Below, piece after piece: positions 13,588 through 60,608 of a stretch of DNA of 64,000 bases. The translations under genes were made by a program, and so were the position numbers. The notes beneath the pieces were generated by a model that searched no databases, was not told where the DNA came from, and worked only from the letters and a program-made list of their open reading frames with translations. The stretch is from assembly GCF_000182745.2 (NCBI RefSeq), contig NC_016021.1:1-64000 (forward strand). Direction: 5' to 3'. Numbering within the stretch: position 1 is the first letter of the stretch; each line of letters begins with the position of its first letter. The stretch comes from Komagataeibacter medellinensis NBRC 3288 (GTDB lineage: Bacteria; Pseudomonadota; Alphaproteobacteria; Acetobacterales; Acetobacteraceae).

Positions 13588-15408
13588 ATGGCGTCAGAAA
13601 ACAAGTCGATCGTCTTGATCGCCCGGATTATCCTCGGAATTCTGATGGTATTTGTGTCTTGGACCGTTGTCGCGTCTTTTGTTTTTCTGAAGGGAACGGG
13701 TTTATCGGGCTCGTTCGAGCATCCTTTCTATCAATGGTGGCTCTATTTTCTGTATGGCCGGGATAATCCGATCGTAGTGCAATGGCTCAAGATCGGCGCG
13801 GGGGCAGGCGGTGTTGTGGTTGCGCTGGTAATGCTGGCGGTGATCTTCCGGCGTGGTGCAATCGGCCCTTCTCTGCGCCCGTCCATATTCAGTCGAAGGC
13901 AACGGCCTATCCGTGGCGTGACAGAGAATCATGGCTATGCGGACTGGATGACAATGAAGCAGGCCAGGCAGCTCTTTCCACGTCCTTCCGCTGAATATGG
14001 AGGTGTCGTTGTAGGCGAAGCCTATCGCGTGGACGAAGACCGGCATGCAAGGGTGCCCTTTCATCCTAAAGAGCCGAAAACATGGGGACAGGGCGGCCGT
14101 GCGCCATTGCTCATAGATCCCTGTGAGACAGGATCGACCCACAGTCTGGTTTTTGCCGGACCGGGATCGTTCAAGTCCACGTCGGCCGTCACCACGCTGA
14201 CCACATGGACGGGCTCTGCCGTGGTGCTTGATCCGAGTACAGAATTGGGGCCGATGCTTCGACCGTTCCGCGAAACGCTGGGTCATCAGGTCTACGAGCT
14301 GCGGCTCGGTGGAGATGTTGGCTTTAATGTCTTGGACTGGATCGACATTCGTTCGCCCGAAGCAATCACGAATATACAGGACGTGGTGTCATGGATATGC
14401 CGGGAGAGTGGTGCCAAAAAAGACGCCAATAACGAGTTTTTTGACCGGCAGGGCCGCAATCTCGTGACGTGTTTATTGGCGCACATGATGTTTGATCCGG
14501 ACCTTCCAGCCGAGGAAAAGACCTTGCGGACGCTGAGAAGCGGGGTCTGCACGCCGCAAGAAGAAATGCGGAATCTGCTGAACACGATCCATGCGAGCAG
14601 TCCGTGCGCCTATGCGAGCCAGACGGCCGGCGCGCTCAAGGGACTGGTCGATGAGACGTTTTCCGGGGTGTATGGCAATGCCGATGACAAGACAGCCTGG
14701 CTCAGTAATCCTGCGTTTGCGGACCTGGTGTCCGGAGACAGTTTTCGCTCGTCAGATCTGGTCGATGGCAAGATGGATGTTTTCGTACAGTTGCCATTGC
14801 GGGCTTTGGAAAACACACCCGAAATTGGTCGCACGATTATAGGGGCGTTACTGAATGCCGTTTATGAAGCTGATGGCAATATTCGGAATCGTGTCCTCTT
14901 CCTTCTGGACGAAGTCGCACGTCTCGGTCCTATGCGGATCATGGCAACAGCACGGGATGCCGGGCGCAAATACGGTATTACCCTGAGATTGCTCTATCAG
15001 TCGGTCGGACAACTCGAAGAACAATGGGGCCGTGAGGGAAAGCGAGCATGGTACGAGGCGGCCGCACATCGGACATATGTTGCGATCTCCGATCTCGATA
15101 CCGCGAAAGAGCTGGAAGAAACCTTCGGTCAGTATGGTGTCATGGCGACATCCGTGGGCAGCAATACCGGCACGTCGGGGAAAGGCTGGGAAGCGAGCAA
15201 CCGTTCGCGCGGGGCGAACACGAGCTATCACGAAATCAGCCGCCCGCTGATCCGACGGGAAGAACTGCTGAACGATGTCCGGGTAGATGAAGCGTTTGTG
15301 GTGGTGCGTGGTGGTCGTCCGTTGCGTTGCGGGATGCCTATCTATTTTCGACGGCCTGAAATCAGAGAAAAAATAGCGGCCAATCGGTTCAATAAGATCT
15401 CGGCCTGA
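13588..15408 (+). CDS. virD4: VirD4/TraG coupling protein
   Basis: At 606 residues this matches VirD4-type coupling proteins, which bring the relaxase-DNA complex to the secretion channel. Two N-terminal membrane helices (about 8-34 and 70-88) precede the ATPase domain. Walker A is GPGSFKST (near residues 191-198) and Walker B is VLFLLDEVARLG. It follows virB11 by 13 bases and closes the structural transfer operon. Confidence 0.94.
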   Translation: MASENKSIVLIARIILGILMVFVSWTVVASFVFLKGTGLSGSFEHPFYQWWLYFLYGRDNPIVVQWLKIGAGAGGVVVALVMLAVIFRRGAIGPSLRPSIFSRRQRPIRGVTENHGYADWMTMKQARQLFPRPSAEYGGVVVGEAYRVDEDRHARVPFHPKEPKTWGQGGRAPLLIDPCETGSTHSLVFAGPGSFKSTSAVTTLTTWTGSAVVLDPSTELGPMLRPFRETLGHQVYELRLGGDVGFNVLDWIDIRSPEAITNIQDVVSWICRESGAKKDANNEFFDRQGRNLVTCLLAHMMFDPDLPAEEKTLRTLRSGVCTPQEEMRNLLNTIHASSPCAYASQTAGALKGLVDETFSGVYGNADDKTAWLSNPAFADLVSGDSFRSSDLVDGKMDVFVQLPLRALENTPEIGRTIIGALLNAVYEADGNIRNRVLFLLDEVARLGPMRIMATARDAGRKYGITLRLLYQSVGQLEEQWGREGKRAWYEAAAHRTYVAISDLDTAKELEETFGQYGVMATSVGSNTGTSGKGWEASNRSRGANTSYHEISRPLIRREELLNDVRVDEAFVVVRGGRPLRCGMPIYFRRPEIREKIAANRFNKISA

Positions 15409-15428
15409 GTGTCAGGGGGACATGAGCA

Positions 15429-15635
15429 ATGTCGGAAACGAACAATGAGAAGCGTCGGGATAAGGCGCGTCAGCAGGGAAGCCAGAAGACGGCCGGTATT
15501 GCCGAGGCGCAGAAAGCGGCATCGCGTGAGAATGTCGCTGATCGCTACTGGAAGCAAACAAGCGAAAAGGGACAGACCCCTGGACAGCGGGCGGAGAGCA
15601 ACAAGCCACGTGCAAAGCCCAAAAGCAGTCCGTAA
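15429..15635 (+). CDS. Small hydrophilic protein of unknown function
   Basis: A 68-residue protein dominated by charged and polar residues (Lys, Arg, Glu, Gln, Ser), with no membrane segment and low sequence complexity, so it is probably disordered. The ATG at 15429 lies eight bases after AGGGGGA. It sits between virD4 and the GIY-YIG-like gene, apparently in the same transcript. No family is recognised. Confidence 0.5.
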   Translation: MSETNNEKRRDKARQQGSQKTAGIAEAQKAASRENVADRYWKQTSEKGQTPGQRAESNKPRAKPKSSP

Positions 15636-22810: not shown

Positions 22811-23769
22811 TAGGTGTTTGGTCCCGGGGTTTGATGGGTTGGATTGATGATGAATCTTTCTGGCTCTGAAGTCCATATTTTGCAGACGTATTCGTAAGGC
22901 GTGAGGCCACTCAGCGTCTTGAGCCTTCGCCCGAAATTATAAGCTGCCATGAAGTCGTTGAGGTGTGTCCTCAACTGCTCATGACTGTCGTAATGGAAGC
23001 GTTTGACGGTTGCCTCTTTGATTGTCCGGTTCATCCGTTCAACCTGACCATTGGTCCAGGGATGATTGGGTTTCGTCAGACGATGTTCGATCCCGTGGGC
23101 TTCGCAGATCATGTCGAAGCGCATGGGACGCGACCAGGCCGTATTGCGATTACGGGGTTGGTCAGCGAACTGGATCCCATTGTCGGTCAGGATGGTGTGG
23201 ATCCGGTAAGGGATGATGCTCAGGAGATGTTCGAGGAATTCCCAGGCCGTCTTCCGATCAGCTTTCTCGACCAGTTGTGTGACAGCGAATTTGCTTGTCC
23301 GGTCAATGGCAACGAAGAGGTACAGCTTGCCTTCAGCGGTCTGGACTTCCGCTATGTCGAGATGAAAGAACCCGATCGGGTAGCGTTTGAAGCGCTGGCG
23401 TTTGGCTTTGTCCCCCTCTATGTCCGGCAGTCGTGAAATCCCGTGACGCTGAAGGCAGCGATGCAGGGCCGAGCGTGTCAGATAGGGAATGCTGGCCTGC
23501 AGGGCATAAAGGCAGTCATCCAGCGGCAGCAACGTATGCCGGCGAAAGGCCACGATCATCGCTTCGTCCGTCTCGGACAGGACCGTTGAGCGCGGCTCTT
23601 TAGGACCTGTCTTCTGATCTTCGACACTCTGTCGCTTCCGCCATTTAGCCACTGTCTTCGGGTTGATCCCGAACTCCTCGCTCAGCGCCGCGAGCGAAGC
23701 CTGCGATCGCTGTATTGCTGCTCGCACGGCGTGCGTGGTCGTGGCGCTCCCATGACGTATCTGTCCCAT
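22810..23769 (-). CDS. IS481-family transposase
   Basis: A 319-residue transposase: an N-terminal helix-turn-helix ([19 protein letters not shown]) and an rve integrase core with the DDE pattern in [21 protein letters not shown] and [15 protein letters not shown]. The inner ATG at 23769 is preferred because AAGGAAG lies just before it; a second ATG five codons upstream lacks a site. It ends with EYVCKIW and a short tail, as in intact relatives. Confidence 0.9.
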
Positions 23770-23829
23770 AATGCTTCCTTCCACTCTCGTGAAAATATCA
23801 CACCATCAAACCCCGGGATTAAACACCTA
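22811..23829 (-). mobile_element. IS481-family element, full copy
   Basis: About 1019 bp between near-perfect terminal inverted repeats that begin TAGGTGTTT at both ends and match over about 25 of 27 bases. One transposase gene fills it, and its TAG stop falls at the very edge of the element. No clear target duplication is visible at the edges. A second, shortened copy lies at 32797-33707 in the same orientation. Confidence 0.82.
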
Positions 23830-23912
23830 ACTCAATACACGTCTTCAAAGACTGATTTTGACGGCACCACTTATCCCAAGCCCTATACAGGTGGAAAGTG
23901 GAAAATCCTGAT
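23830..23912. other. Spacer between IS481 and IS3 elements
   Basis: Eighty-three bases between two mobile elements. I see no gene, and no match to the porin stump on the far side of the IS3 element. Confidence 0.4.
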
Positions 23913-32770: not shown

Positions 32771-33647
32771 TACAACCCTTCTGTGAGATTTCCGCGTTGA
32801 GCCTTCGCCCAAAATTATAGGCTGCCATGAAGTCGTTGAGGTGTGTCCTCAACTGCTCATGACTGTCGTAATGGAAGCGTTTGACGGTTGCCTCTTTGAT
32901 TGTCCGGTTCATCCGTTCAACCTGACCATTGGTCCAGGGATGATTGGGTTTCGTCAGACGATGTTCGATCCCGTGGGCTTCGCAGATCATGTCGAAGCGC
33001 ATGGGACGCGACCAGGCCGTATTGCGATTACGGGGTTGGTCAGCGAACTGGATCCCATTGTCGGTCAGGATGGTGTGGATCCGGTAAGGGATGATGCTCA
33101 GGAGATGTTCGAGGAATTCCCAGGCCGTCTTCCGATCAGCTTTCTCGACCAGTTGTGTGACAGCGAATTTGCTTGTCCGGTCAATGGCAACGAAGAGGTA
33201 CAGCTTGCCTTCAGCGGTCTGGACTTCCGCTATGTCGAGATGAAAGAACCCGATCGGGTAGCGTTTGAAGCGCTGGCGTTTGGCTTTGTCCCCCTCTATG
33301 TCCGGCAGTCGTGAAATCCCGTGACGCTGAAGGCAGCGATGCAGGGCCGAGCGTGTCAGATAGGGAATGCTGGCCTGCAGGGCATAAAGGCAGTCATCCA
33401 GCGGCAGCAACGTATGCCGGCGAAAGGCCACGATCATCGCTTCGTCCGTCTCGGACAGGACCGTTGAGCGCGGCTCTTTAGGACCTGTCTTCTGATCTTC
33501 GACACTCTGTCGCTTCCGCCATTTAGCCACTGTCTTCGGGTTGATCCCGAACTCCTCGCTCAGCGCCGCGAGCGAAGCCTGCGATCGCTGTATTGCTGCT
33601 CGCACGGCGTGCGTGGTCGTGGCGCTCCCATGACGTATCTGTCCCAT
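32760..33647 (-). pseudogene. IS481 transposase lacking its C-terminal end
   Basis: Identical in sequence to the full copy as far as AAYNFGRRL, then a foreign tail (NAEISQKGCTSG) read from the adjoining DNA. The lost part includes [13 protein letters not shown]. The DDE residues remain, but the element has only one end. Confidence 0.85.
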
Positions 33648-33707
33648 AATGCTTCCTTCCACTCTCGTGAAAATATCACACCATCAAACCCCGGGACTAA
33701 ACACCTA
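32797..33707 (-). mobile_element. IS481-family element, truncated copy
   Basis: Nearly identical to 22919-23829, with a few base differences such as one in the right terminal repeat (GGGACT for GGGATT). The left terminal repeat and about 108 bp are missing; the break is at 32797 next to the IS1380-type element. The right end keeps AAACACCTA. Confidence 0.85.
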
Positions 33708-33989
33708 ACTGACGACACGCCGTAGGTAGCTTTTCCAGATGTACGAAAATTCCGGTAACTGGCGGTTCTGAGGACGAAGCAGCCGTGAAAAGCCGTTTAG
33801 GTGAATGTCCGATGCCGTGGTTACGGATCTCAATAACCGACCTTCTGCATTCCCCCCCGATCTGCCTGTCTGCTCAGCGATACAGGAGCAGACAGGCAGC
33901 AGTCGCCTACATGTCAGACATAGAAAAGAGCCAAACAATGCTCCGAAAGCGGACGTTATCTCTAGAATTAAAATGCTGAGATCTCCGAG
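33708..33989. other. Gap with hairpin repeat, copy 1
   Basis: No gene is supported. It holds a perfect 12-bp hairpin, GCCTGTCTGCTC (33864-33875) and GAGCAGACAGGC (33886-33897) with a 10-base loop, followed by GCAGTCGCC. The same block recurs at 44111-44144 beyond kdpE, in the same orientation. Confidence 0.6.
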
Positions 33990-34439
33990 TTAACTCGTTA
34001 TTTTATTATTGCCACGAACGAGCCAATAGACGATCCCCAAGGCCAGGATTGCCGCCGAGAGTGCCAGAACCTCCATGACGTCGAGGCCGCTGAGATCCAG
34101 GACAATAAATTTGCGAACGGTCGCCATCATACCGATGAGAAGGACGGACCGCATTCTGACCATGCTGTGCGAGGGTGTGTCGGGCGAGACAAGAATAGAG
34201 TGTTTGAATTCCAGTGCAATCAGGACTGTAAAAAACAGACCAAAAAGGCTCTGTAGAACCACAGGATTGGTCGGGGAAAGGGTTGCTGTTCGGAGCATTT
34301 CAAAAACGGCGTATAGCACATGTATGAGACCAAGGGCCGCGACGACCATGATGCAGAGCGTAAGAACCAGCATAGCGATCTCTTCAAAAAGATCGAAAAT
34401 AGAAGAAATCTTCTCAAATCCTGGTATGTTTTTAATCAT
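33990..34439 (-). CDS. psiE: PsiE-family membrane protein
   Basis: A 149-residue protein with four hydrophobic helices. The C-terminal half (LIALEFKHSILV, VRMRSVLLIGMMATVRKFIVLD, and LALGIVYWLV) matches the phosphate-starvation-inducible PsiE family, whose biochemical role is unknown. It lies downstream of the porin on the same strand and may share its transcript. Confidence 0.82.
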   Translation of the reverse strand: MIKNIPGFEKISSIFDLFEEIAMLVLTLCIMVVAALGLIHVLYAVFEMLRTATLSPTNPVVLQSLFGLFFTVLIALEFKHSILVSPDTPSHSMVRMRSVLLIGMMATVRKFIVLDLSGLDVMEVLALSAAILALGIVYWLVRGNNKITS

Positions 34440-34475
34440 AGCCTTTGTCGTCCTTTTTAGCCTATGTCTGCGTAG

Positions 34476-35750
34476 TTAGAAACCTAATACCGCATCAGCT
34501 CCGAAAGTGAACTGACCAACATTTCTAAGGTCATTAAATGGCCTCGTTCCGTTCAGTGAGCGATCAAACCGGACTTCAGGACGGATCTCGAACAACTTGA
34601 CGGAATGACCGAGCACGGGACGCCAGGTAGCACCCAGTGTCAGGGCACCGTACGTCGTCGGCGGTGCTGATTGCGTGACGGTGGGTTTACCGAGCGTCGC
34701 TTGCATGTAGGCATTATTTGCGATGAAGGATGTTACAAACAGACCGGTATCATCACGATAGATCTCGCCGCGGTAATTTAGAAGAAGTGTGGGAGTTAAT
34801 TGATAGGAAAGGTAGCTTACGAAGCTGTAGGTGTTGGCATGAAGCCCTTCATCGTGCAGGAAGTTCAGCTCACCGGTGAAGGTCAGTCGGTCTGAAATCT
34901 TGTAACTTCCGCTAAGATCATTCCAGTAACGTTGAGCCGAGTTTGCACGCTGTCCGAGGGACCGGGTAGAGTTTTCAGGACCGACGCGACCGAGGTATGT
35001 CAGAGACAGTTTGCCATTTGCCAGACTGGACGCTGTCAGACCGAAATATCCCGCAGCAGTATGATTGTTGTCACCTCCCCCGAACGAGACCTGATTGCCC
35101 GTGTCCACTCCGAATAATGCGTCGATATGGTCGGTCAGGTGCCATTGAAACATTGCGCCCACATGCTCGAACGGCGTGGAATACTCAGTCGTATAGGACA
35201 GGGTATAGAAAGGACGGAGTGAGGGGTCGAGGGATTCCACGCCCATAGGGGAGGCCAGTATGCCAGCCTGCATGTCCAGACCATGGCGGGTTAACCAAGG
35301 CAGGTGAACGTCGAGATGGGCCTGAGGCACAATGAACTGGTAACGACTGGTCATTAACCGGTCTGTGATGCCTGCAATATTAAAGTACCGCCCGTCGGCA
35401 CCGTAGAGCCCCCGGACCATGAAGCCCACGTCGTAAGACGATGCTGTCGTATCGACTGCACGCGCAGCCGTCAGCGTCAGCTGGTCGAGTTGCGCCTGAT
35501 TGGCCCTGTCACCGAAGAACTGTCCGAAATTAATCCCATTTGCAGGGCGAGAAACGTTTGCGTTTATTCCTCCCTCGATCTGCCCTGCAAGGGTGATGTC
35601 ATCGAGCCACTCCGTGGCAGGCTTCGCGATCGCATCGTTCATGTCCAGAAGAACCATCGTAATGGCTGCTGTCAGGAAAAAACCTACATTTCCAGATCGG
35701 GGCGTCCATTTCAGGAATGCAGATTTGTCCAGATAAACTCTTGTCATCAT
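34476..35750 (-). CDS. Outer-membrane beta-barrel porin (BBP2/OmpL-like)
   Basis: About 424 residues with an N-terminal export signal (GFFLTAAITMVLLDM up to about AIA-KP) and a barrel of alternating strands ending in phenylalanine. LHDEGLHANTYSFVSYL and ILASPMGVESLDPSLRPFY are typical of the putative beta-barrel porin-2 family. The ATG at 35750, with GAGAG eight bases upstream, is preferred; an earlier ATG at 35798 has no site. It is divergent from the kdp operon, which suggests a channel for ions or small solutes. Its last 20 residues are repeated in the stump before kup. Confidence 0.8.
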   Translation of the reverse strand: MMTRVYLDKSAFLKWTPRSGNVGFFLTAAITMVLLDMNDAIAKPATEWLDDITLAGQIEGGINANVSRPANGINFGQFFGDRANQAQLDQLTLTAARAVDTTASSYDVGFMVRGLYGADGRYFNIAGITDRLMTSRYQFIVPQAHLDVHLPWLTRHGLDMQAGILASPMGVESLDPSLRPFYTLSYTTEYSTPFEHVGAMFQWHLTDHIDALFGVDTGNQVSFGGGDNNHTAAGYFGLTASSLANGKLSLTYLGRVGPENSTRSLGQRANSAQRYWNDLSGSYKISDRLTFTGELNFLHDEGLHANTYSFVSYLSYQLTPTLLLNYRGEIYRDDTGLFVTSFIANNAYMQATLGKPTVTQSAPPTTYGALTLGATWRPVLGHSVKLFEIRPEVRFDRSLNGTRPFNDLRNVGQFTFGADAVLGF

Positions 35751-49156: not shown

Positions 49157-52100
49157 TTATAGGCGCGCACTGCGCCGTTTCTTTTGTTTTTCCTGCGCTT
49201 TGGCTTCGGTTTTGCGTGAGAGAATGGTTCTGACCTTCGCTTTCAAGGCTTTGGTCATCTCACGCAACCGATCCATCATACCGTTTCGGTCCTTCATGGC
49301 TTCAGCCGTGTTTTTAAGGCCCTCGGATGCCTTCTGCTCGTGCCGGCGGGTTGAGAAGCGGCCTGCCAGAGTAGCACGTTGCTTGCCCTCTCCTTCCCGC
49401 GCTTCCAGACCCTGTTTTGTCTGCTGCATAGCGCGTACGGTGCCACGCCGGATATTTTCCGCTCGTTCCAGAAGGGCGTGTGCTGTCTCTTTTTCGGGCT
49501 GGCGCTCGAAGTTCCGGATGATATTTTTCAGGACATCGGTTGCGGTAATTGTACGCTGATCCCCCAGAGGCCGTCGGCCGGCAATCTCGCTCCGTTCAGC
49601 GCCATCCGATGTGACCATAAAGGTCTGCTCCCGGTGTCGGCTGGACGAAGTGTAAGCACCGAACGCCGTGACATTCCGTGACCCGGCCGGAATGGCAAAA
49701 ATATGCTCGGTGACGGTGACACCCTGGCTGGTATTGGTGGTCATCGCGTCCCCATAGGATAGCAGAAACCGACCGGTTTCCTTCTCCTTGAGGGAGTCCC
49801 ATTTTACCAGTCCATTCCGACCATTGGCCCCTCGCAGAACCAGCCCCTCTTCGCGTACGTCACGGACTTCAACCACAGTGCCGTTGCGGCCGAGATTCCC
49901 GCCTGAATTGGTGTCGAGGAAGCGGGCATTTGTCCGCTGGAACAGGCGAACCTTGTCGCCGCGTGCCAGGGACAGGTCATAGGAGGTATTTTCTCCGGTA
50001 GCCTGTGCCTTGATGGTAATCAGATCCGCGCTGATCTCCCCAAGCTCACGCCGGCGATCACGGATCGCGCGGCTGATGTTGTGGGCGTCAGCATTCGTCG
50101 GGGTGGAGATCGAAAGGGTGTATTTGTCGCGATCGGCATTCTCCGTACGGCGTTGCTGCCAGAGATCGACCACGGCCTTGATGGCTTCCTCGTAGCCTCC
50201 CGGTGCAACACGCAGGGTTCCATTTTCCGCCTTCCGCTTGACGGCTTCCTCGGTTTGCCCGTTGCGAAACATAAGGGTGGTTTCGCGCTCTTCCTGCTGA
50301 ATCTGGCGCGTGGACGTCCCCAAGAGGGGTATGTTTTCCTTGCCCAGCCCTCGTTGCAGTAATTCGATAACCGCGCCCGCCTCAACGGACTGCATCTGTT
50401 TCGGGTCGCCGATCATCACCAGCTTGAAGCCGATGTCCTCTCGCTTCCTGAGGATGTCATTGAGCTGGCGTGTGCCCAGGAGGCTGAGTTCGTCAACGAC
50501 GACGACGGATTTCTTGGTGAGTTTGAGCTTGCCGCTGTCGATCCGGCGCAGGAAGGATTCCAGAGCGCGGGTCTTGGCGACTTCCATACCCGTAGCAGAC
50601 AGATCGTCGGACTGTCGCCAGGCCAAGGCGATGCCGTGAACGTCCCGGCCCTGCTGCTTCCACGCGGTTACGAGCGGCTTCAGGAGTGTGGTTTTTCCTG
50701 AACCTGCAACGCCGATCCCCACGACGACCTGACCGCCCTTCCCTAGATCCTCCATCATCGTGCGTTGGGCCTGCCCGTGCGCGCTCTCGAAACTGAGTTC
50801 GGGATGGGCCTTGACGGCCTGGTCAATCTGCTTGTCCGTGAGCGCGCCGCTTCGATCCTTCGCGGCCTCGCGCGTCATGCGGATCAGGTCGCGCTCTTCG
50901 CTTTCGTGAAGGGCGGTCGTGATTCCGACCCGCTCTCTGCCTTCCGGGTCTTTGACTTCTCCCCAAATCAGGGAGGTTTGACGTCCGTGCTGGCGGACGC
51001 CGCGATTGCGCATGGCTGCGGTCACGGCGTTGATGTCGGCTGCTGTGTCGATCCCCGCTGCGATCAATCCTTTGGCGGCGGCGATCCGGGCATCAGAACA
51101 GTCAAGAGATGCGCGCTGCTGAAGCTGCTTGTCAAAGACATGCTGTGCAGCTTCATAGGCGTGTTCCAGGCGCTCGGCCCGATCGCGCTCGGATGCGATT
51201 TCATCGGGCCGGAGAATGCTCCGGTGCTTGTATCCGATCTCTGCGGCCGTACGCTGCCATGAGGCCATGTCGGTAAGATCGTCCGACTTCGCGCCGCGCG
51301 GATCTTGCACCCCTTGCTTGATAAGGCCGATTTTGCGCTTGGCATCGAGGGTATCCCAATCAAGGCCCTGCCCTGCCGCATAGGCACGCGCGGCGGCCGT
51401 TCCTGAAAGTGTGCGGCGGCTGAACTGTTCACAGACACTCTCGGGAATGGCTGCAACCCTGCCCATTTCCGTCCGCTCGTCCAGCACCATATCGACCCCC
51501 TGCTTGCGCAGGTTCGTCGCTAGGTGGGCCTGATAGACGGCGCCCCACTCCTTGACCTTGCCGTTAAGCTGATCGAGCCACAGGCCGCCCATGCGGCCCT
51601 CGTCGGTCAGTGCCGCGTTCAGAATGGCAGTATGCGTGTGGAGCTGCATATCGCCTGGCACCCGGCCCCCTCCCTGACGGAGCGTATGCAGCTCGGTAAA
51701 GACCTCGCCCTGGTCGTCTGTCCGGATGACCTCAACGGTCGGCCGTGCCGTATAATGATCGAAGGACACCCAGCCGATGGATGCGGGGTCCCAGCCATCT
51801 TTTCCGGCGTCGCCTTTCCGCGCACGTCCGATCACCTTTTCCACTTCCTGCATGGTTGAGGCGATCGCGTCGTGATGTGCCTGAAGGATGATTCCGCGCT
51901 CGGCTTCTGTCGGGGCGAATGCCCATGCAACGGAAACCGATTTGGGGGCGGAAAAGGTGAAATCCACATACCCGATCCGGGCGCGACTGGTGTCCATGCG
52001 CTCGTGATATTCGGACACACTCAACTCCTGCCCGTCGGCCATACGCCCGGACAGGATGTTTTCGCGTTGGTCATTGGTCAGGCTGGCCGCATCGGCACCA

Positions 52101-52819
52101 AGGACGGCCGTAAAACGCCGTACAGCCCGTTCAGCTTTCTTAGCAGGTATATCGCCGCCAGAAACCGTCTTGCCCGCCAGAACGGCTTCCAGTTCGGATC
52201 TCGTGGGCAATCGGCTTTCATCCATCTCGAAGATTTTGCCGATTGCTTCCGTGGCCGATCTTTTCGTCTTCCCCGGAATATCCTGTCCGTCTGCTCGTTG
52301 CCCGTTCAGAAGGTGAGCGACTTCGGCCGGTGTCAGGCCCTTCGTGGGGTCGATCCCAAGTCGTGCGGCCAATTCGGGATTCATGTCCCGGCGTGGGATG
52401 GCTGTCGCACTGCTGTAGTCGCGGGCGGCGCTGGCGTTGCGGATCTCGCTATCAAGTGCGTCGGCAGTGAAGGGCACGGCGCGTTGCTGCAACAATTCCT
52501 CGGCTTTGGCCCGGTCGATCAGATTGGCCGCCACGAAGGTTCCGGCTGCGCGGACTGCCAGCACGTTGTCCGAATCGGACGTGGCTTCTCGCAGGCGGTC
52601 GATTTCCATTGCCAGCGTGTCGGCCAGGTCATCCATCCCGCTCGTGGTGCCGGCATAGCGGGTGGCAGCGGCCTCGGCCGGGGTCGGGGGTCTTACACCC
52701 TGCGCGTAGTACTCCGCCATCACGGCCATCTCGGGCGGAAGGGTCTGCTGAAGCAGGTGCTCGCTCATGGCCTTGGCGGCGGACGTGGCCCCGGCCGCGC
52801 CTGTCCGATAGGTCAGCAT
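49157..52819 (-). CDS. traA: MOBF relaxase/helicase (TrwC/TraI-like)
   Basis: A 1220-residue two-part conjugative relaxase. The nicking domain has a tyrosine pair (MAEYYAQG, residues 37-38), FTFSAPKSVSVAWAF (near 288) and the metal-binding MQLHTHTAILN (histidines 394 and 396). The helicase half has Walker A GVAGSGKTT (residues 703-711) and VVVDELSLLG. It nicks oriT and unwinds the transferred strand. Between the tyrosines and the core lies an extra region of about 220 residues with three similar 43-residue repeats (about 145-275). It overlaps the upstream small gene by one base. Confidence 0.92.
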   Translation of the reverse strand: MLTYRTGAAGATSAAKAMSEHLLQQTLPPEMAVMAEYYAQGVRPPTPAEAAATRYAGTTSGMDDLADTLAMEIDRLREATSDSDNVLAVRAAGTFVAANLIDRAKAEELLQQRAVPFTADALDSEIRNASAARDYSSATAIPRRDMNPELAARLGIDPTKGLTPAEVAHLLNGQRADGQDIPGKTKRSATEAIGKIFEMDESRLPTRSELEAVLAGKTVSGGDIPAKKAERAVRRFTAVLGADAASLTNDQRENILSGRMADGQELSVSEYHERMDTSRARIGYVDFTFSAPKSVSVAWAFAPTEAERGIILQAHHDAIASTMQEVEKVIGRARKGDAGKDGWDPASIGWVSFDHYTARPTVEVIRTDDQGEVFTELHTLRQGGGRVPGDMQLHTHTAILNAALTDEGRMGGLWLDQLNGKVKEWGAVYQAHLATNLRKQGVDMVLDERTEMGRVAAIPESVCEQFSRRTLSGTAAARAYAAGQGLDWDTLDAKRKIGLIKQGVQDPRGAKSDDLTDMASWQRTAAEIGYKHRSILRPDEIASERDRAERLEHAYEAAQHVFDKQLQQRASLDCSDARIAAAKGLIAAGIDTAADINAVTAAMRNRGVRQHGRQTSLIWGEVKDPEGRERVGITTALHESEERDLIRMTREAAKDRSGALTDKQIDQAVKAHPELSFESAHGQAQRTMMEDLGKGGQVVVGIGVAGSGKTTLLKPLVTAWKQQGRDVHGIALAWRQSDDLSATGMEVAKTRALESFLRRIDSGKLKLTKKSVVVVDELSLLGTRQLNDILRKREDIGFKLVMIGDPKQMQSVEAGAVIELLQRGLGKENIPLLGTSTRQIQQEERETTLMFRNGQTEEAVKRKAENGTLRVAPGGYEEAIKAVVDLWQQRRTENADRDKYTLSISTPTNADAHNISRAIRDRRRELGEISADLITIKAQATGENTSYDLSLARGDKVRLFQRTNARFLDTNSGGNLGRNGTVVEVRDVREEGLVLRGANGRNGLVKWDSLKEKETGRFLLSYGDAMTTNTSQGVTVTEHIFAIPAGSRNVTAFGAYTSSSRHREQTFMVTSDGAERSEIAGRRPLGDQRTITATDVLKNIIRNFERQPEKETAHALLERAENIRRGTVRAMQQTKQGLEAREGEGKQRATLAGRFSTRRHEQKASEGLKNTAEAMKDRNGMMDRLREMTKALKAKVRTILSRKTEAKAQEKQKKRRSARL

Positions 52820-53139
52820 CAGGGTGCCGGGGTATCGGACGCCTCGTGACCGGAAGCGACAAGAAGAGACGCCATATCATTCATGCTTTCGGCCATTGTG
52901 TTGACGGCCTGGGTATTCTCGCCCACGGCGGCGGTCAGGTTGGTGAGGGCCTGCGCGACCGGAGAATCCCCCGGCTCGTCTCTGGCGGCTGCCAGCACTT
53001 CGGTCAGCATTTCGGTCTGCGCCTGAAGCGTGTCGAGCATCATCCCGAGGACGGTCTGAATGGCCGAGAGCTGCTTACCGTGCTCTTCCAGCGTATCGGA
53101 AACATGGGCGAGATAGGCCCCGTCGGTGTCTTTCGCCAT
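52819..53139 (-). CDS. Small coiled-coil protein before the relaxase
   Basis: A 106-residue hydrophilic protein with long predicted helices (LEEHGKQLSAIQTVLGMMLD, AVNTMAESMNDMASLLVAS) and no membrane segment. It is coupled to the relaxase gene and faces the repeat region, so an accessory relaxosome role comparable to TrwA is likely by position, although no ribbon-helix-helix motif is evident. Confidence 0.6.
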   Translation of the reverse strand: MAKDTDGAYLAHVSDTLEEHGKQLSAIQTVLGMMLDTLQAQTEMLTEVLAAARDEPGDSPVAQALTNLTAAVGENTQAVNTMAESMNDMASLLVASGHEASDTPAP

Positions 53140-53306
53140 GAGGGTTCGGGCTCCTTATTCCCGGCATTATCACGAAAACGTGAGCAATGAATCGGAAGGC
53201 GATGCGCCGGAATCAGTGCCTTCTTTTCGCACCTTTTCACCCCATGCGTCTAGCATGACTTGGTCTGTAGAAAAAACGCCACTCCCCCCTCACCCTCCTA
53301 CCTCTC
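53140..53306. other. Candidate oriT-proximal region
   Basis: The divergent gap between the relaxase and stb-like operons. A hairpin TCACG-AAAA-CGTGA lies at 53170-53183, and TGCGTCTAGC near 53254 faintly recalls a MOBF nick region. A pyrimidine-rich stretch precedes the 12-bp repeats. oriT is expected here from gene order, but the nick site is not identified. Confidence 0.45.
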
Positions 53307-53411
53307 ATGGAAGGATACGATAGAGGCCACGTATCAGGACACGAAAGAGGACACATCAGAGGATACGTTAGAGGGCACTCTAGAGGCTACGGAATAAAAA
53401 AAAGAAGGTGA
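53307..53411 (+). CDS. Possible 34-residue G-[YH]-x-R repeat peptide
   Basis: An ATG at 53307 opens a frame through all seven 12-bp repeats, giving MEGYDRGHVSGHERGHIR and a further GYVR, GHSR, GYGI and KKRR. Each repeat unit is one G-(Y/H)-x-(R/S) tetrapeptide. The sequence before the ATG is pyrimidine-rich with no ribosome-binding site, so the frame may be only a consequence of repeats whose period is divisible by three. Confidence 0.25.
   Translation: MEGYDRGHVSGHERGHIRGYVRGHSRGYGIKKRR
53313..53396 (+). repeat. Seven tandem 12-bp repeats (Stb/centromere-like)
   Basis: Seven uninterrupted 12-base units start at 53313, 53325, 53337, 53349, 53361, 53373 and 53385, with the pattern GG-N2-AC-N3-(A/T)(G/C/T)A. 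Examples are GGATACGATAGA and GGACACATCAGA. They lie 49 bases before an StbA/TraK-position gene. In R388, StbA binds tandem short repeats beside oriT, so these are read as the equivalent binding array. Confidence 0.75.
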
Positions 53412-53420
53412 CGGACGAGA

Positions 53421-53440
53421 AGAAAAATGCAATTTTTCTC
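53421..53440. promoter_or_regulatory. AGAAAAAT/ATTTTTCT inverted repeat before the stbA-like gene
   Basis: Arms AGAAAAAT (53421-53428) and ATTTTTCT (53432-53439) flank GCA, five bases before the next start codon, covering the place where a ribosome-binding site would be. Closely related repeats occur at 59983, 60553 and 63459. Confidence 0.55.
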
Positions 53441-53445
53441 AAGCC

Positions 53446-54042
53446 ATGAAAAACGCCAACAGACAGACGATCCGTGGAGTTCCGAGCAAACGTCCTCGCA
53501 CTGAAGAGGAATTGCAGGAGGCTGCGGATCGGTTCAGCCAGGACTGGACCCCACAGGATCAGGTGATGCCGTGGATACGCGCTCATGAGCCGGAGCTTAG
53601 TGCGATGGTGAGTGCGGGCTGGTCCTGGGATGATGTCGGCCGGGCGATGGCTCGTGCGCGCATCACGTATAAAACCGAGGTGCCCATGAAAGGGTCGATC
53701 TTGCGCGCGAAAGCGTACAAGGCGCGGAAGGACAGGTCAGAGGCGACGACAGTTCGAGCGGTTCCCGCGAGAACGCCAGTCGTCTCGGGAGGCGTGAAAC
53801 CGGCTCCTGCTGCCTCGTCCATCAGACCGTCAGCGGACCCCTCGCCTGCGTGGCTGGAACAGGCCCCGGAAAGGGAGGAAGGCGAACCGGAGTTCAAGCC
53901 GATCTCACTGCGAACCCCTCTGCCCCCGACAGCCGAACCCAAGGCGGTAAAAACGCAAACGGCTCCTGAGCGGCCGAAACGCTCAAGAGCCGATGCTTTA
54001 GCAATGCTAACTAATCGTCCTGTAAAGACTGAGGAATCATAA
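53446..54042 (+). CDS. StbA/TraK-like protein, first gene of the stb-like operon
   Basis: A 198-residue protein. The N-terminal 90 residues are compact and basic (KRPRTEEELQEAADRFSQDW, WSWDDVGRAMARARITYKTE, GSILRAKAYKARK) and could contain a helix-turn-helix; the rest is a proline- and charge-rich disordered tail. It stands where StbA (R388) or TraK (RP4) would be: next to oriT-type repeats and coupled to a ParA-like ATPase (TAATG). DNA binding to the 12-bp repeats is inferred from position. Confidence 0.6.
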   Translation: MKNANRQTIRGVPSKRPRTEEELQEAADRFSQDWTPQDQVMPWIRAHEPELSAMVSAGWSWDDVGRAMARARITYKTEVPMKGSILRAKAYKARKDRSEATTVRAVPARTPVVSGGVKPAPAASSIRPSADPSPAWLEQAPEREEGEPEFKPISLRTPLPPTAEPKAVKTQTAPERPKRSRADALAMLTNRPVKTEES

Positions 54043-54941
54043 TGAGCGACACGAAATCAGGCAACAAAAACCCTGCGCCTGCTGCCAAGAAGCCGGTCCA
54101 GCCTGCGAAGTTCGATCTGAACCAGACACTCGCGCAGGAACCGGTCTTTGACGTTAAACCCTTCACGCCGCGTAAGGTCGAAGAAGCCGAGCCGGTGATT
54201 GCCGAGGGCATGGACCTGAGCGGCAAGACGAAGATCGTCTTCGTCAACGGGCGCGGCAAGACCGGCAAGACCACATTCCTGCGCTGGGCGGCCGAGCGTG
54301 CTCTGCTGGGCAACCGGCCGATCCTCATGGCGGATCTGGACCCAACCAATGCGTCGTTCTCGTCGTATTTTCAGGACGTGGCGCGACCGAACACAGACGA
54401 TCCGGCAGGCGTTGCGCAGTGGATGCAGCGGTTCATCGAATACGCGGTCGAAAACCAGACAACGGCGGTTCTCGATCTTGGCGGCGGCGACACCACGCTG
54501 CGCGAGACGGCGGCCGAAATGCCGGGTTTCGCATCAGCGATTGCCGAGGCCGGCGCGGTTCCCGTCCTGATCTCGCTGGTCGGGTCGCAGGTCGATGATC
54601 TGGCCCCGATTGCAACACTGCGCGATCGCGGGTTTTCGCCGGACGCGCGGGCGATCGTGTTCAACGAGGCATCCAAGGAAATCGGTCACACGCGCGATCA
54701 GTCATTCGGCCGCCTGCTGACAAGCGCCGTGGTCGTGGATGAAGTCACGGACGGGGCGGTCCCGCTGTGGATGCCCCGGCTCAATGCGGCGGCAGCCGTC
54801 GAAAGCCGCCGGAGCCTGTTCAGCGCCGCGCGCGACGGCCTGACCACGCCTCCCCTCGGGATGTTCGACCGCTCAAAGGTCCGGACATGGCTCGAAGCGA
54901 TGGACCGCCGGTTTGCTGGGATCATGTCATGGCTTCCGTAA
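54042..54941 (+). CDS. StbB/TraL-like ParA-family ATPase
   Basis: A 299-residue P-loop ATPase of the MinD/ParA fold. After a disordered N terminus comes FVNGRGKTGKTTFLRWAAER with a deviant Walker A (RGKTGKTT), then LMADLDPTNASF and VLDLGGGDTTLRE. The NGRGKTGKTTF form resembles StbB of R388 and TraL of RP4 rather than classical ParA. Such proteins position plasmid DNA and help it enter transfer. Confidence 0.8.
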   Translation: MSDTKSGNKNPAPAAKKPVQPAKFDLNQTLAQEPVFDVKPFTPRKVEEAEPVIAEGMDLSGKTKIVFVNGRGKTGKTTFLRWAAERALLGNRPILMADLDPTNASFSSYFQDVARPNTDDPAGVAQWMQRFIEYAVENQTTAVLDLGGGDTTLRETAAEMPGFASAIAEAGAVPVLISLVGSQVDDLAPIATLRDRGFSPDARAIVFNEASKEIGHTRDQSFGRLLTSAVVVDEVTDGAVPLWMPRLNAAAAVESRRSLFSAARDGLTTPPLGMFDRSKVRTWLEAMDRRFAGIMSWLP

Positions 54942-55588
54942 GCCAGGACGAACCGGCAGACGATTTTGAAGGCGCGATCGCCAGCGCAAGACAGGATCTA
55001 CAGTTGGCGATTGCCAAGGCGCACCTGACGGATGATCCGTTGGGTGTTGCCTTGCACGCGATGTCCGAGACGCTGGGTGCTCAGGCCGCGCTCTACAAGG
55101 CGACGTTCAACAAGTATCGCGACATCAGCGCGGACCTCGATCGCGCGCGAAGCGATGCGGTCGAAGCTGGACGGCTGGAACTTGAAGGCCAGAAAGCCGG
55201 GATCGTTCAGGAACTGGCTCCCCAACTCCTGAAGCTGACCGCTTCGCAGGTGAAGGTTCAGGAACGCACGGTCAAGCTCAAGACGCTGCTCATGGCGGGC
55301 GGCATTGCCGGAGTGCTCGCCATCACGGCGGCCTGTGTCGGATACGGCACGGGCTGGAAAAACGGCAGGACGAACGGTCTTTACGACAAGGGGGCGCTGT
55401 TCGCGGCGCTACAGGAGCATGGCCCGGGCGCTGAGACGGCCCTGATTGAACTGGTCCGGAACAACGACATTCCGGCTGTCCTATCGGCCTGCCGCGCTCA
55501 TGCTTTCGATCAGGGCGGGCGACAGGCTTGCGCCGCGCCGCTCTGGCTTGAGCCGCCTCGGCCTCCTGCTGCACAGGACAACAAATAA
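54929..55588 (+). CDS. StbC/TraM-like membrane protein
   Basis: A 219-residue protein overlapping the ATPase gene by 13 bases. It has a helical N-terminal half (LQLAIAKAHLTDDPLGVALH, MSETLGAQAALYK), a single membrane segment (LLMAGGIAGVLAITAACVG) near residue 125 and a cysteine-containing C-terminal domain. TraM of RP4 has the same helix-plus-anchor design and position. Starting at 54929 removes an upstream extension that only overlaps the ATPase gene. Confidence 0.65.
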   Translation: MASVSQDEPADDFEGAIASARQDLQLAIAKAHLTDDPLGVALHAMSETLGAQAALYKATFNKYRDISADLDRARSDAVEAGRLELEGQKAGIVQELAPQLLKLTASQVKVQERTVKLKTLLMAGGIAGVLAITAACVGYGTGWKNGRTNGLYDKGALFAALQEHGPGAETALIELVRNNDIPAVLSACRAHAFDQGGRQACAAPLWLEPPRPPAAQDNK

Positions 55589-59677: not shown

Positions 59678-59887
59678 TCAATGATTGATAAGTGTGAGGC
59701 AGAACATCAGCGCGACGAAGCTGCCAAAACAGCAACAGGCAAGAGCGCCACAAAGAAGACAGCGCGGGTTTTCCAGAACGCCTTCTGACGGAGCCTCTGG
59801 GACTTCCGACAGATACGCGGCGGCAAAGAAAACAAAGGTTAAAACACCGAATACTCCGGCGAAAACAGACAGATAGACATCTGACAT
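59678..59887 (-). CDS. Small membrane protein before ssb
   Basis: A 69-residue protein with two membrane helices (LSVFAGVFGVLTFVFFAAAY and CLLCGALACCCFGSFVALMF) and a cysteine-rich second helix (five cysteines in 30 residues). GGAGGG lies before the ATG at 59887. It is co-directional with ssb and probably in the same transcript, driven from the operator/promoter at 59949. No family is recognised. Confidence 0.6.
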   Translation of the reverse strand: MSDVYLSVFAGVFGVLTFVFFAAAYLSEVPEAPSEGVLENPRCLLCGALACCCFGSFVALMFCLTLINH

Positions 59888-59948
59888 AGGGTTTACCCTC
59901 CCTCCACCGAGCGGCTGGGGACTGGCCCCGGCTTTCCGCCCGGTGTTC

Positions 59949-60002
59949 TTATTATATACACGATATAATAAGGGAGGGGCAAGAGAAAAATGCAGTTTTT
60001 CA
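59949..60002 (-). promoter_or_regulatory. Shared operator/promoter, site A (ssb cluster)
   Basis: Perfect 9-bp arms TTATTATAT (59949-59957) and ATATAATAA (59963-59971). On the minus strand it reads TTATTATATC-N4-ATATA, the pattern common to sites A-D. Upstream on that strand lies the GAAAAACTGCATTTTTCTC repeat (59983-60001) and TTGCCC, an arrangement also present at site D. Confidence 0.65.
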
Positions 60003-60608
60003 CACAGATAATGGCGGTTCCCCGCCAAAAATTACCCTTGCATCCGCCCCCTCAAAACCCCAGCCTTTCGTTCGACCTGCCAGCGGCAGGGCGAAAGGCA
60101 GCGCAGCGACGCCTTTCGTCCCGACACCTTCAGATCCGCCGGCAACGCAGCGCAGGTCTAGGGGTCATCTCAGGGGACCCGTCTGCACGGAGCGACCAAA
60201 GGGAGCGCAGGAAGATGGGGTGGATGATCCCCTAGACCGGAGCGAGGCTGCTGGCACCAGCGCAGCCCCCCTTTGGGGGGCGAGCACCGGGGGGACATAC
60301 CGGGCTTCCGATCGTTACCCGGATGGGCGGAGACAGACGGCGACCGCAGCGCAGCGCAGGGCGGCGGCTGGCTCCGGTGAGTTGGCCGGGAGACAGGTGC
60401 AGCGCACCTGGCTCGCGGCCTTACGAACTAGAGCGGAGATCAAGCCCCCGAAAAAACCCGCACGCATCATCAGAACAGGTCATCTAGGGAACAAGAAGAA
60501 GCGATCTGATTTGTAAAACCTGATTAAATGGCGGTCTGGTGCAGTTTTAATTGAGAAAAATGTAATTTTCTGCGAAATTTCTGTTCCCACGAACAGGGAA
60601 TCACAGCC
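60003..60608. other. GC-rich structured noncoding region
   Basis: Six hundred bases without a convincing gene; frames through it have no ribosome-binding sites. GTCTAGGGGTCATC (60156-60169) pairs with GATGATCCCCTAGAC (60223-60237) across one bulge, enclosing about 53 bases. A perfect GCCCCCC-TTT-GGGGGGC hairpin lies at 60265-60281. GCAGCGCAG-like motifs recur near 60097, 60145 and 60346. A partial GAGAAAAAT repeat is at 60553. It could hold a structured RNA, a recombination site or a second origin. Confidence 0.5.

Follow-up and report, generated by a model that had tools for sequence, protein, structure and literature searches.

What is a short tandem-repeat array doing between a conjugative relaxase gene and a divergent three-gene operon, and does this arrangement belong with the oriT/Stb region of plasmid R388? 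The R388 stb operon is a model for reconciling inheritance with transfer in a plasmid that lacks a normal partition system; most work on it concerns enterobacterial plasmids. The locus considered here lies within the window, the whole 64,000-nt stretch of DNA that was analysed, which is the first 64 kb of the 76-kb contig C1. Its features are:

49157-52819, minus strand: MOBF (TrwC/TraI-type) relaxase-helicase, 1220 aa (PF08751, AAA_30, NF041492)
52819-53139, minus strand: 106-aa helical, coiled-coil-like protein in the TrwA position (ORF just upstream of the relaxase)
53243-53270, plus strand: predicted nic core of oriT (comparative evidence and R388 analogy)
53312-53395, plus strand: 12-bp direct repeat array of seven units, consensus AGGAYACGNTAG (TRF and period test)
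53446-54042, plus strand: StbA-like protein, 198 aa, basic (profile match to R388-type StbA; orthologues in relatives)
54042-54941, plus strand: StbB-like P-loop ATPase, 299 aa, GRGKTGKTT (alignment; fold matches; weak R388 StbB profile)
54929-55588, plus strand: StbC-like protein, 219 aa, with a single predicted membrane segment (third ORF, coupled; hydrophobic 19-mer in most relatives)

The seven units of the array read, in order, AGGATACGATAG, AGGCCACGTATC, AGGACACGAAAG, AGGACACATCAG, AGGATACGTTAG, AGGGCACTCTAG and AGGCTACGGAAT. At period 12 the units have a mean pairwise identity of 0.66, compared with 0.29-0.36 at other periods, and none of 1000 dinucleotide shuffles equalled the array, which is also the top 7x12 stretch of the entire 64-kb window and was picked up by TRF as well. 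A preliminary description of this DNA had placed the array at 53313-53396, one base off its true coordinates; the seven 12-bp units that it reported are real, and the repeat is, as it stated, distinct from that of R388 (AGGAYACGNTAG at 12 bp, versus the 9-bp stbDR TTGCATCAT at 11 bp). The start codon of the 198-aa ORF lies 50 bp past the end of the array. When one mismatch is allowed, the consensus unit has 27 sites in the window against 19.8 expected, single and chance-like, and only clustered units were therefore counted.

The three ORFs at 53446-55588 overlap each other by 1-13 bp and bear out the proposed operon of a basic protein, a P-loop ATPase and a protein with one hydrophobic segment. 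The 198-aa protein has an HTH-like N-terminal domain (about residues 20-98) followed by a long low-complexity tail, while Pfam and NCBIfam searches matched the 219-aa StbC-like protein to no family. The operon is divergent, as had also been described, from a TrwC/TraI-type relaxase encoded on the minus strand, which matches Pfam TrwC (5e-38) and AAA_30 (8e-37) and scores over the cut-off of the NCBIfam MobF model NF041492. The N-terminal part of this relaxase (window 52100-52819, minus strand) has a YY motif near residue 37 and, ahead of the remaining TrwC domain, a long insert, with the Pfam match beginning at residue 146; the same N-terminus is present in relatives, which suggests a distinct MOBF clade. 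No ribbon-helix-helix match was obtained for the 106-aa protein, and a small ORF occupies its position in pACRY03, pACMV2, pAC258-29 and other plasmids as well. Conjugative plasmids of Acetobacter, Novacetimonas and Komagataeibacter carry DNA that is nearly identical. The virB genes of C1 (4.5-15.4 kb) have their counterparts in the MPF_T genes of pAACEN1, a plasmid whose leading side additionally carries ssb and VbhA/Fic genes.

The predicted nic core consists of a hairpin, CATGC-GTCTA-GCATG (53243-53257), then a spacer and TGGTCTGTAG; written with a slash for the predicted nick, the part beyond the hairpin is ACTTGGTCT/GTAG. The short hairpin of the window folds no better than shuffles of the surrounding sequence, and support for the core is therefore comparative. 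The hairpin and TGGTCTGT are kept in about 20 distinct relatives (19 distinct upstream sequences), with nine distinct pairs of hairpin arms across the 19 sequences, most of them complementary and two or three imperfect. The core resembles the nic of R388 (GTATTGTCT/ATAG), which is reported as GCACCGAAAGGTGCGTATTGTCT/ATAGCC (PMC4176350), and by this analogy we infer that the plus strand is nicked between 53266 and 53267. The pairing that characterizes a MOBF oriT and its relaxase, a TrwC-type enzyme plus a hairpin-and-nic core (here with a predicted nick), is found at the locus, as is the R388-type arrangement of an stbABC-like operon beside nic, on the leading side and divergent from the MOB genes.

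Relationship to the R388 proteins was assessed with profiles. The StbA-like profile comprised 58 domains, none from R388; a comparison with R388 StbA in the alignment was set aside as circular. Among 1450 ORFs, the best matches to this profile from outside the family were R388-type StbA proteins (E 0.00044, 0.028 and 0.029), and hhalign of the StbA-like HTH domain against R388 StbA gave 74% with a pairwise E of 2.8e-5 over 55 columns (score 30.6; 100 permuted-column decoys, at most 11.8). By these measures the HTH-like domain of the first gene product is detectably homologous to R388 StbA. The profile-profile match between the StbB-like protein and R388 StbB is weak (13-20% probability) and colinear over 145-178 columns, with a score of 29.8 against decoys of at most 22.4; the 299-aa protein does not match NF041292 (StbB), and its low-confidence AlphaFold model matches SIMIBI-class ATPases. 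The AlphaFold models were built from one to four sequences and are of low confidence; Foldseek and VIA-align runs with the StbA-like model (pLDDT 64) returned nothing meaningful and did not recover 7pc1, the solved structure of the R388 StbA N-terminal domain, an outcome that we weighed as no evidence. No protein of the operon exceeds the cut-offs of the NCBIfam models StbA_2, StbB and StbC; R388 StbA and StbC are themselves below theirs. The lack of a match to these models fits the 'undescribed branch' that the preliminary description had entertained, and, judged by sequence, the module is an undescribed, divergent branch of the Stb kind.

Plasmids of relatives repeat this layout, from the relaxase through the small protein, nic and the array to the genes of StbA-, StbB- and StbC-like type; it is conserved in Acidiphilium pACRY03 and pACMV2, in A. 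pasteurianus pAC258-29 and in Roseomonas, Lichenicola and Methylobacterium plasmids. A strong StbB-like match, at E below 1e-25, was obtained in about 40 of 200 sampled Acetobacteraceae genomes. Among 289 genomes spread over the class, a match at 1e-15 was found in the window's own genome only; cases outside the Acetobacteraceae are scattered plasmids, and the viral contigs searched gave a single, plasmid-like locus. On this sampling, the module family is centred on the Acetobacteraceae. Virtually every locus encodes an StbA-like HTH protein directly upstream of the StbB-like gene. A coupled third ORF that contains a hydrophobic 19-mer is present in 44 of 52 relatives.

The 28.8-kb Lichenicola cladoniae plasmid unnamed8 carries, at 14811-15627, an oriT-like core, an array that is 12-bp-like by eye and a gene for an StbA-like protein 57% identical to that of the window (absent from the tree discussed below), with neither an StbB-like gene nor a relaxase nearby; this plasmid is possibly mobilised in trans. 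A second, different Stb-like module is present in the window's own genome (contig C7, about 34130-34210, minus strand); its array has the 11-bp unit AGGGAGCGAYA, and its nic-like core is GCACCAACGGTGCAATGGTGTATG.

Arrays in the relatives lie at the same place as in the window, with units that differ in sequence by lineage and recur every 11 or 12 bp. The dominant period in 53 dereplicated loci was 11 in 25, 12 in nine, another value in two and unclear in 17. Period 12 occurs in 7/7 members of one StbA-like clade (98% SH-aLRT), the window included, and in 2/27 loci outside it (Fisher p=7e-6, for loci that are non-independent through kinship and a clade motif that was noticed before the spacing test). 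Shuffled labels never cluster as tightly on the StbA-like tree as the observed spacing does, and one of the two outside cases, pAC258-29, is really 12-12-9, or 33 bp per three units. Spacing is thus associated with StbA-like clade: 12 bp in the clade of the window and 11 bp, as in R388, in most others. New here are this association and unit sequences private to each lineage. Tentatively, they might reflect a large undescribed alphaproteobacterial Stb lineage whose arrays act as plasmid-private address tags, unit and StbA-like protein co-evolving, which would prevent cross-reaction between plasmids in one cell, and 11 or 12 bp per protomer being a clade-specific filament property; we think this possible, if on balance doubtful.

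When the intergenic DNA of the locus was searched against the whole genome (match C1:64692-64735), a second array of the AGGAYACGNTAG-type unit emerged beyond the window end, at C1:64692-64751. Its five units are AGGATACACCAG, AGGATACAGAAC, AGGACACGTTAG, AGGCTACGATAG and AGGATACGGCGG, and it is conserved in five related plasmids. About 0.9 Mb of other plasmid DNA, near-identical relatives excepted, contains no clusters of the unit, and the same scan applied to R388 recovers its known extra stbDR sites. Among the contigs of relatives, some of them partial, a second array of the plasmid's own unit (three or more units) was found only in the plasmid type of the window. The R388-type recurrence of the repeat at further sites of the same plasmid is therefore present here, and together with the nic-like core, the layout in relatives and the StbA HTH homology it supports the R388-like oriT/Stb reading first offered for this locus.

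Other repeats on the contig are of different kinds. A 580-bp repeat is present in four direct copies that are 88-97% identical (window 59882-60465; C1 64052-64635, 66082-66667 and 71620-72209), dispersed through the leading region and adjoining minus-strand genes; one copy, as single-stranded DNA, folds better than 100/100 shuffles (z -3.6), and these repeats may be Frpo-like single-strand promoters that serve early expression. Two tandem-repeat arrays with 47- and 24-bp units (CGGTGCAATC..CCACCCC) lie at 1060-1346, within ORF 964-1362, and a 923-bp direct repeat (99.4% identical; window 22919-23841 and 32797-33719) is possibly a pair of insertion-sequence copies.

What, then, might the array and operon do? 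Probably, in our judgement, they are an Stb-type module belonging to a conjugative MOBF/MPF_T plasmid found in acetic acid bacteria, for which we infer array binding, repression, a segregation mode and ATPase-driven positioning. The relaxase would nick the plus strand at about 53266/53267, and the stb side would lead on entry into the recipient. The HTH-like domain of the 198-aa StbA-like protein would hold it on the array, each 12-bp unit probably taking one protein and the proteins lying head to tail; from there it would repress its own operon, and possibly also a gene near the second array, and keep the plasmid in a mode of maintenance (segregation). Release of the plasmid, or its repositioning towards the transfer apparatus, would fall to the StbB-like ATPase, for which the StbC-like membrane protein is perhaps the anchor. 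We favour this mechanism because of the shared anatomy and the data on R388, where StbA binds 9-bp repeats spaced 11 bp, stabilises the plasmid and inhibits transfer, for which StbB is then required (PMC3098194), and represses its own promoter (about 50-fold) and other promoters (PMC3937220).

The repression data would also suit an array that is an autoregulatory operator only, bound by an StbA-like protein that acts as a local repressor and has no role in segregation or transfer control; the array falls within the stretch from nic to the operon start, in which the promoter has to lie, and the second array could mark another repressed promoter. We regard this as unlikely, since seven or more units over 84 bp, in arrays that are long in many relatives, exceed the needs of simple repression, and the array's link with nic and with a P-loop ATPase has been kept. 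Somewhat less probable again is an ordinary ParABS-type partition system, with a small ParA, a non-ParB centromere protein and the array as centromere, that sits beside oriT by chance. Tandem repeats do precede the operon, the low-confidence model of the ATPase has a SIMIBI-class fold, and no other PF13614 ParA was found on the contig, which is also consistent with a stability role for the Stb-like module; however, the ATPase scores are weak and sub-threshold (CbiA 0.037, ParA_partition 0.079), the DNA-binding protein has no ParA/ParB family score, is encoded by the first gene and matches StbA, and pACRY03 and the Roseomonas plasmids have separate ParA genes beside the module. Replication-origin iterons, to which short direct tandem repeats are akin, and a functionless relic are both very improbable and were rejected, since the RepA of this plasmid type is about 24 kb off (pAACEN1 34039-34944) and spacing is maintained despite divergence of unit sequence between lineages.

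If the Stb-type mechanism holds, the many natural arrays of this divergent branch turn it into a testable code, in which swapping units or changing the spacing from 12 bp to 11 bp should shift specificity between proteins. The branch also yields nic-region predictions where plasmid annotation shows nothing but hypothetical genes next to a MobF relaxase.

Among known systems, Type I (ParA-based) partition resembles the window in its P-loop ATPase, DNA-binding partner and tandem repeats, but the proteins here match no ParA/ParB family and the module is linked to nic in relatives; R388 StbB, unlike the Type I ATPase, is dispensable for stability. The relaxases of RP4 and Agrobacterium belong to other families. 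By description (PMC3098194 and general knowledge) rather than by sequence, RP4 TraK-TraL-TraM and Agrobacterium VirC1/VirC2 are like the window in placing a DNA-binding protein and a ParA/MinD-like ATPase beside the transfer origin. The stbABC operon of R388 (IncW) differs from the window in repeat sequence and in its 11-bp rather than 12-bp spacing, the proteins here fall under the curated cut-offs and StbB is only weakly similar; a 106-aa helical protein stands where R388 has the RHH protein TrwA, and the coupling-protein gene is with the virB genes, not between relaxase and oriT as in R388. R388 and its IncN/IncP-9 relatives nevertheless share with the window the gene order and the divergence from the MOB genes, and R388 stb, like the module described here, lies beside nic on the leading side, with short repeats, one helical turn apart, in the nic-stbA interval, further repeat copies on the plasmid, a coupled third gene and an MPF_T transfer system.
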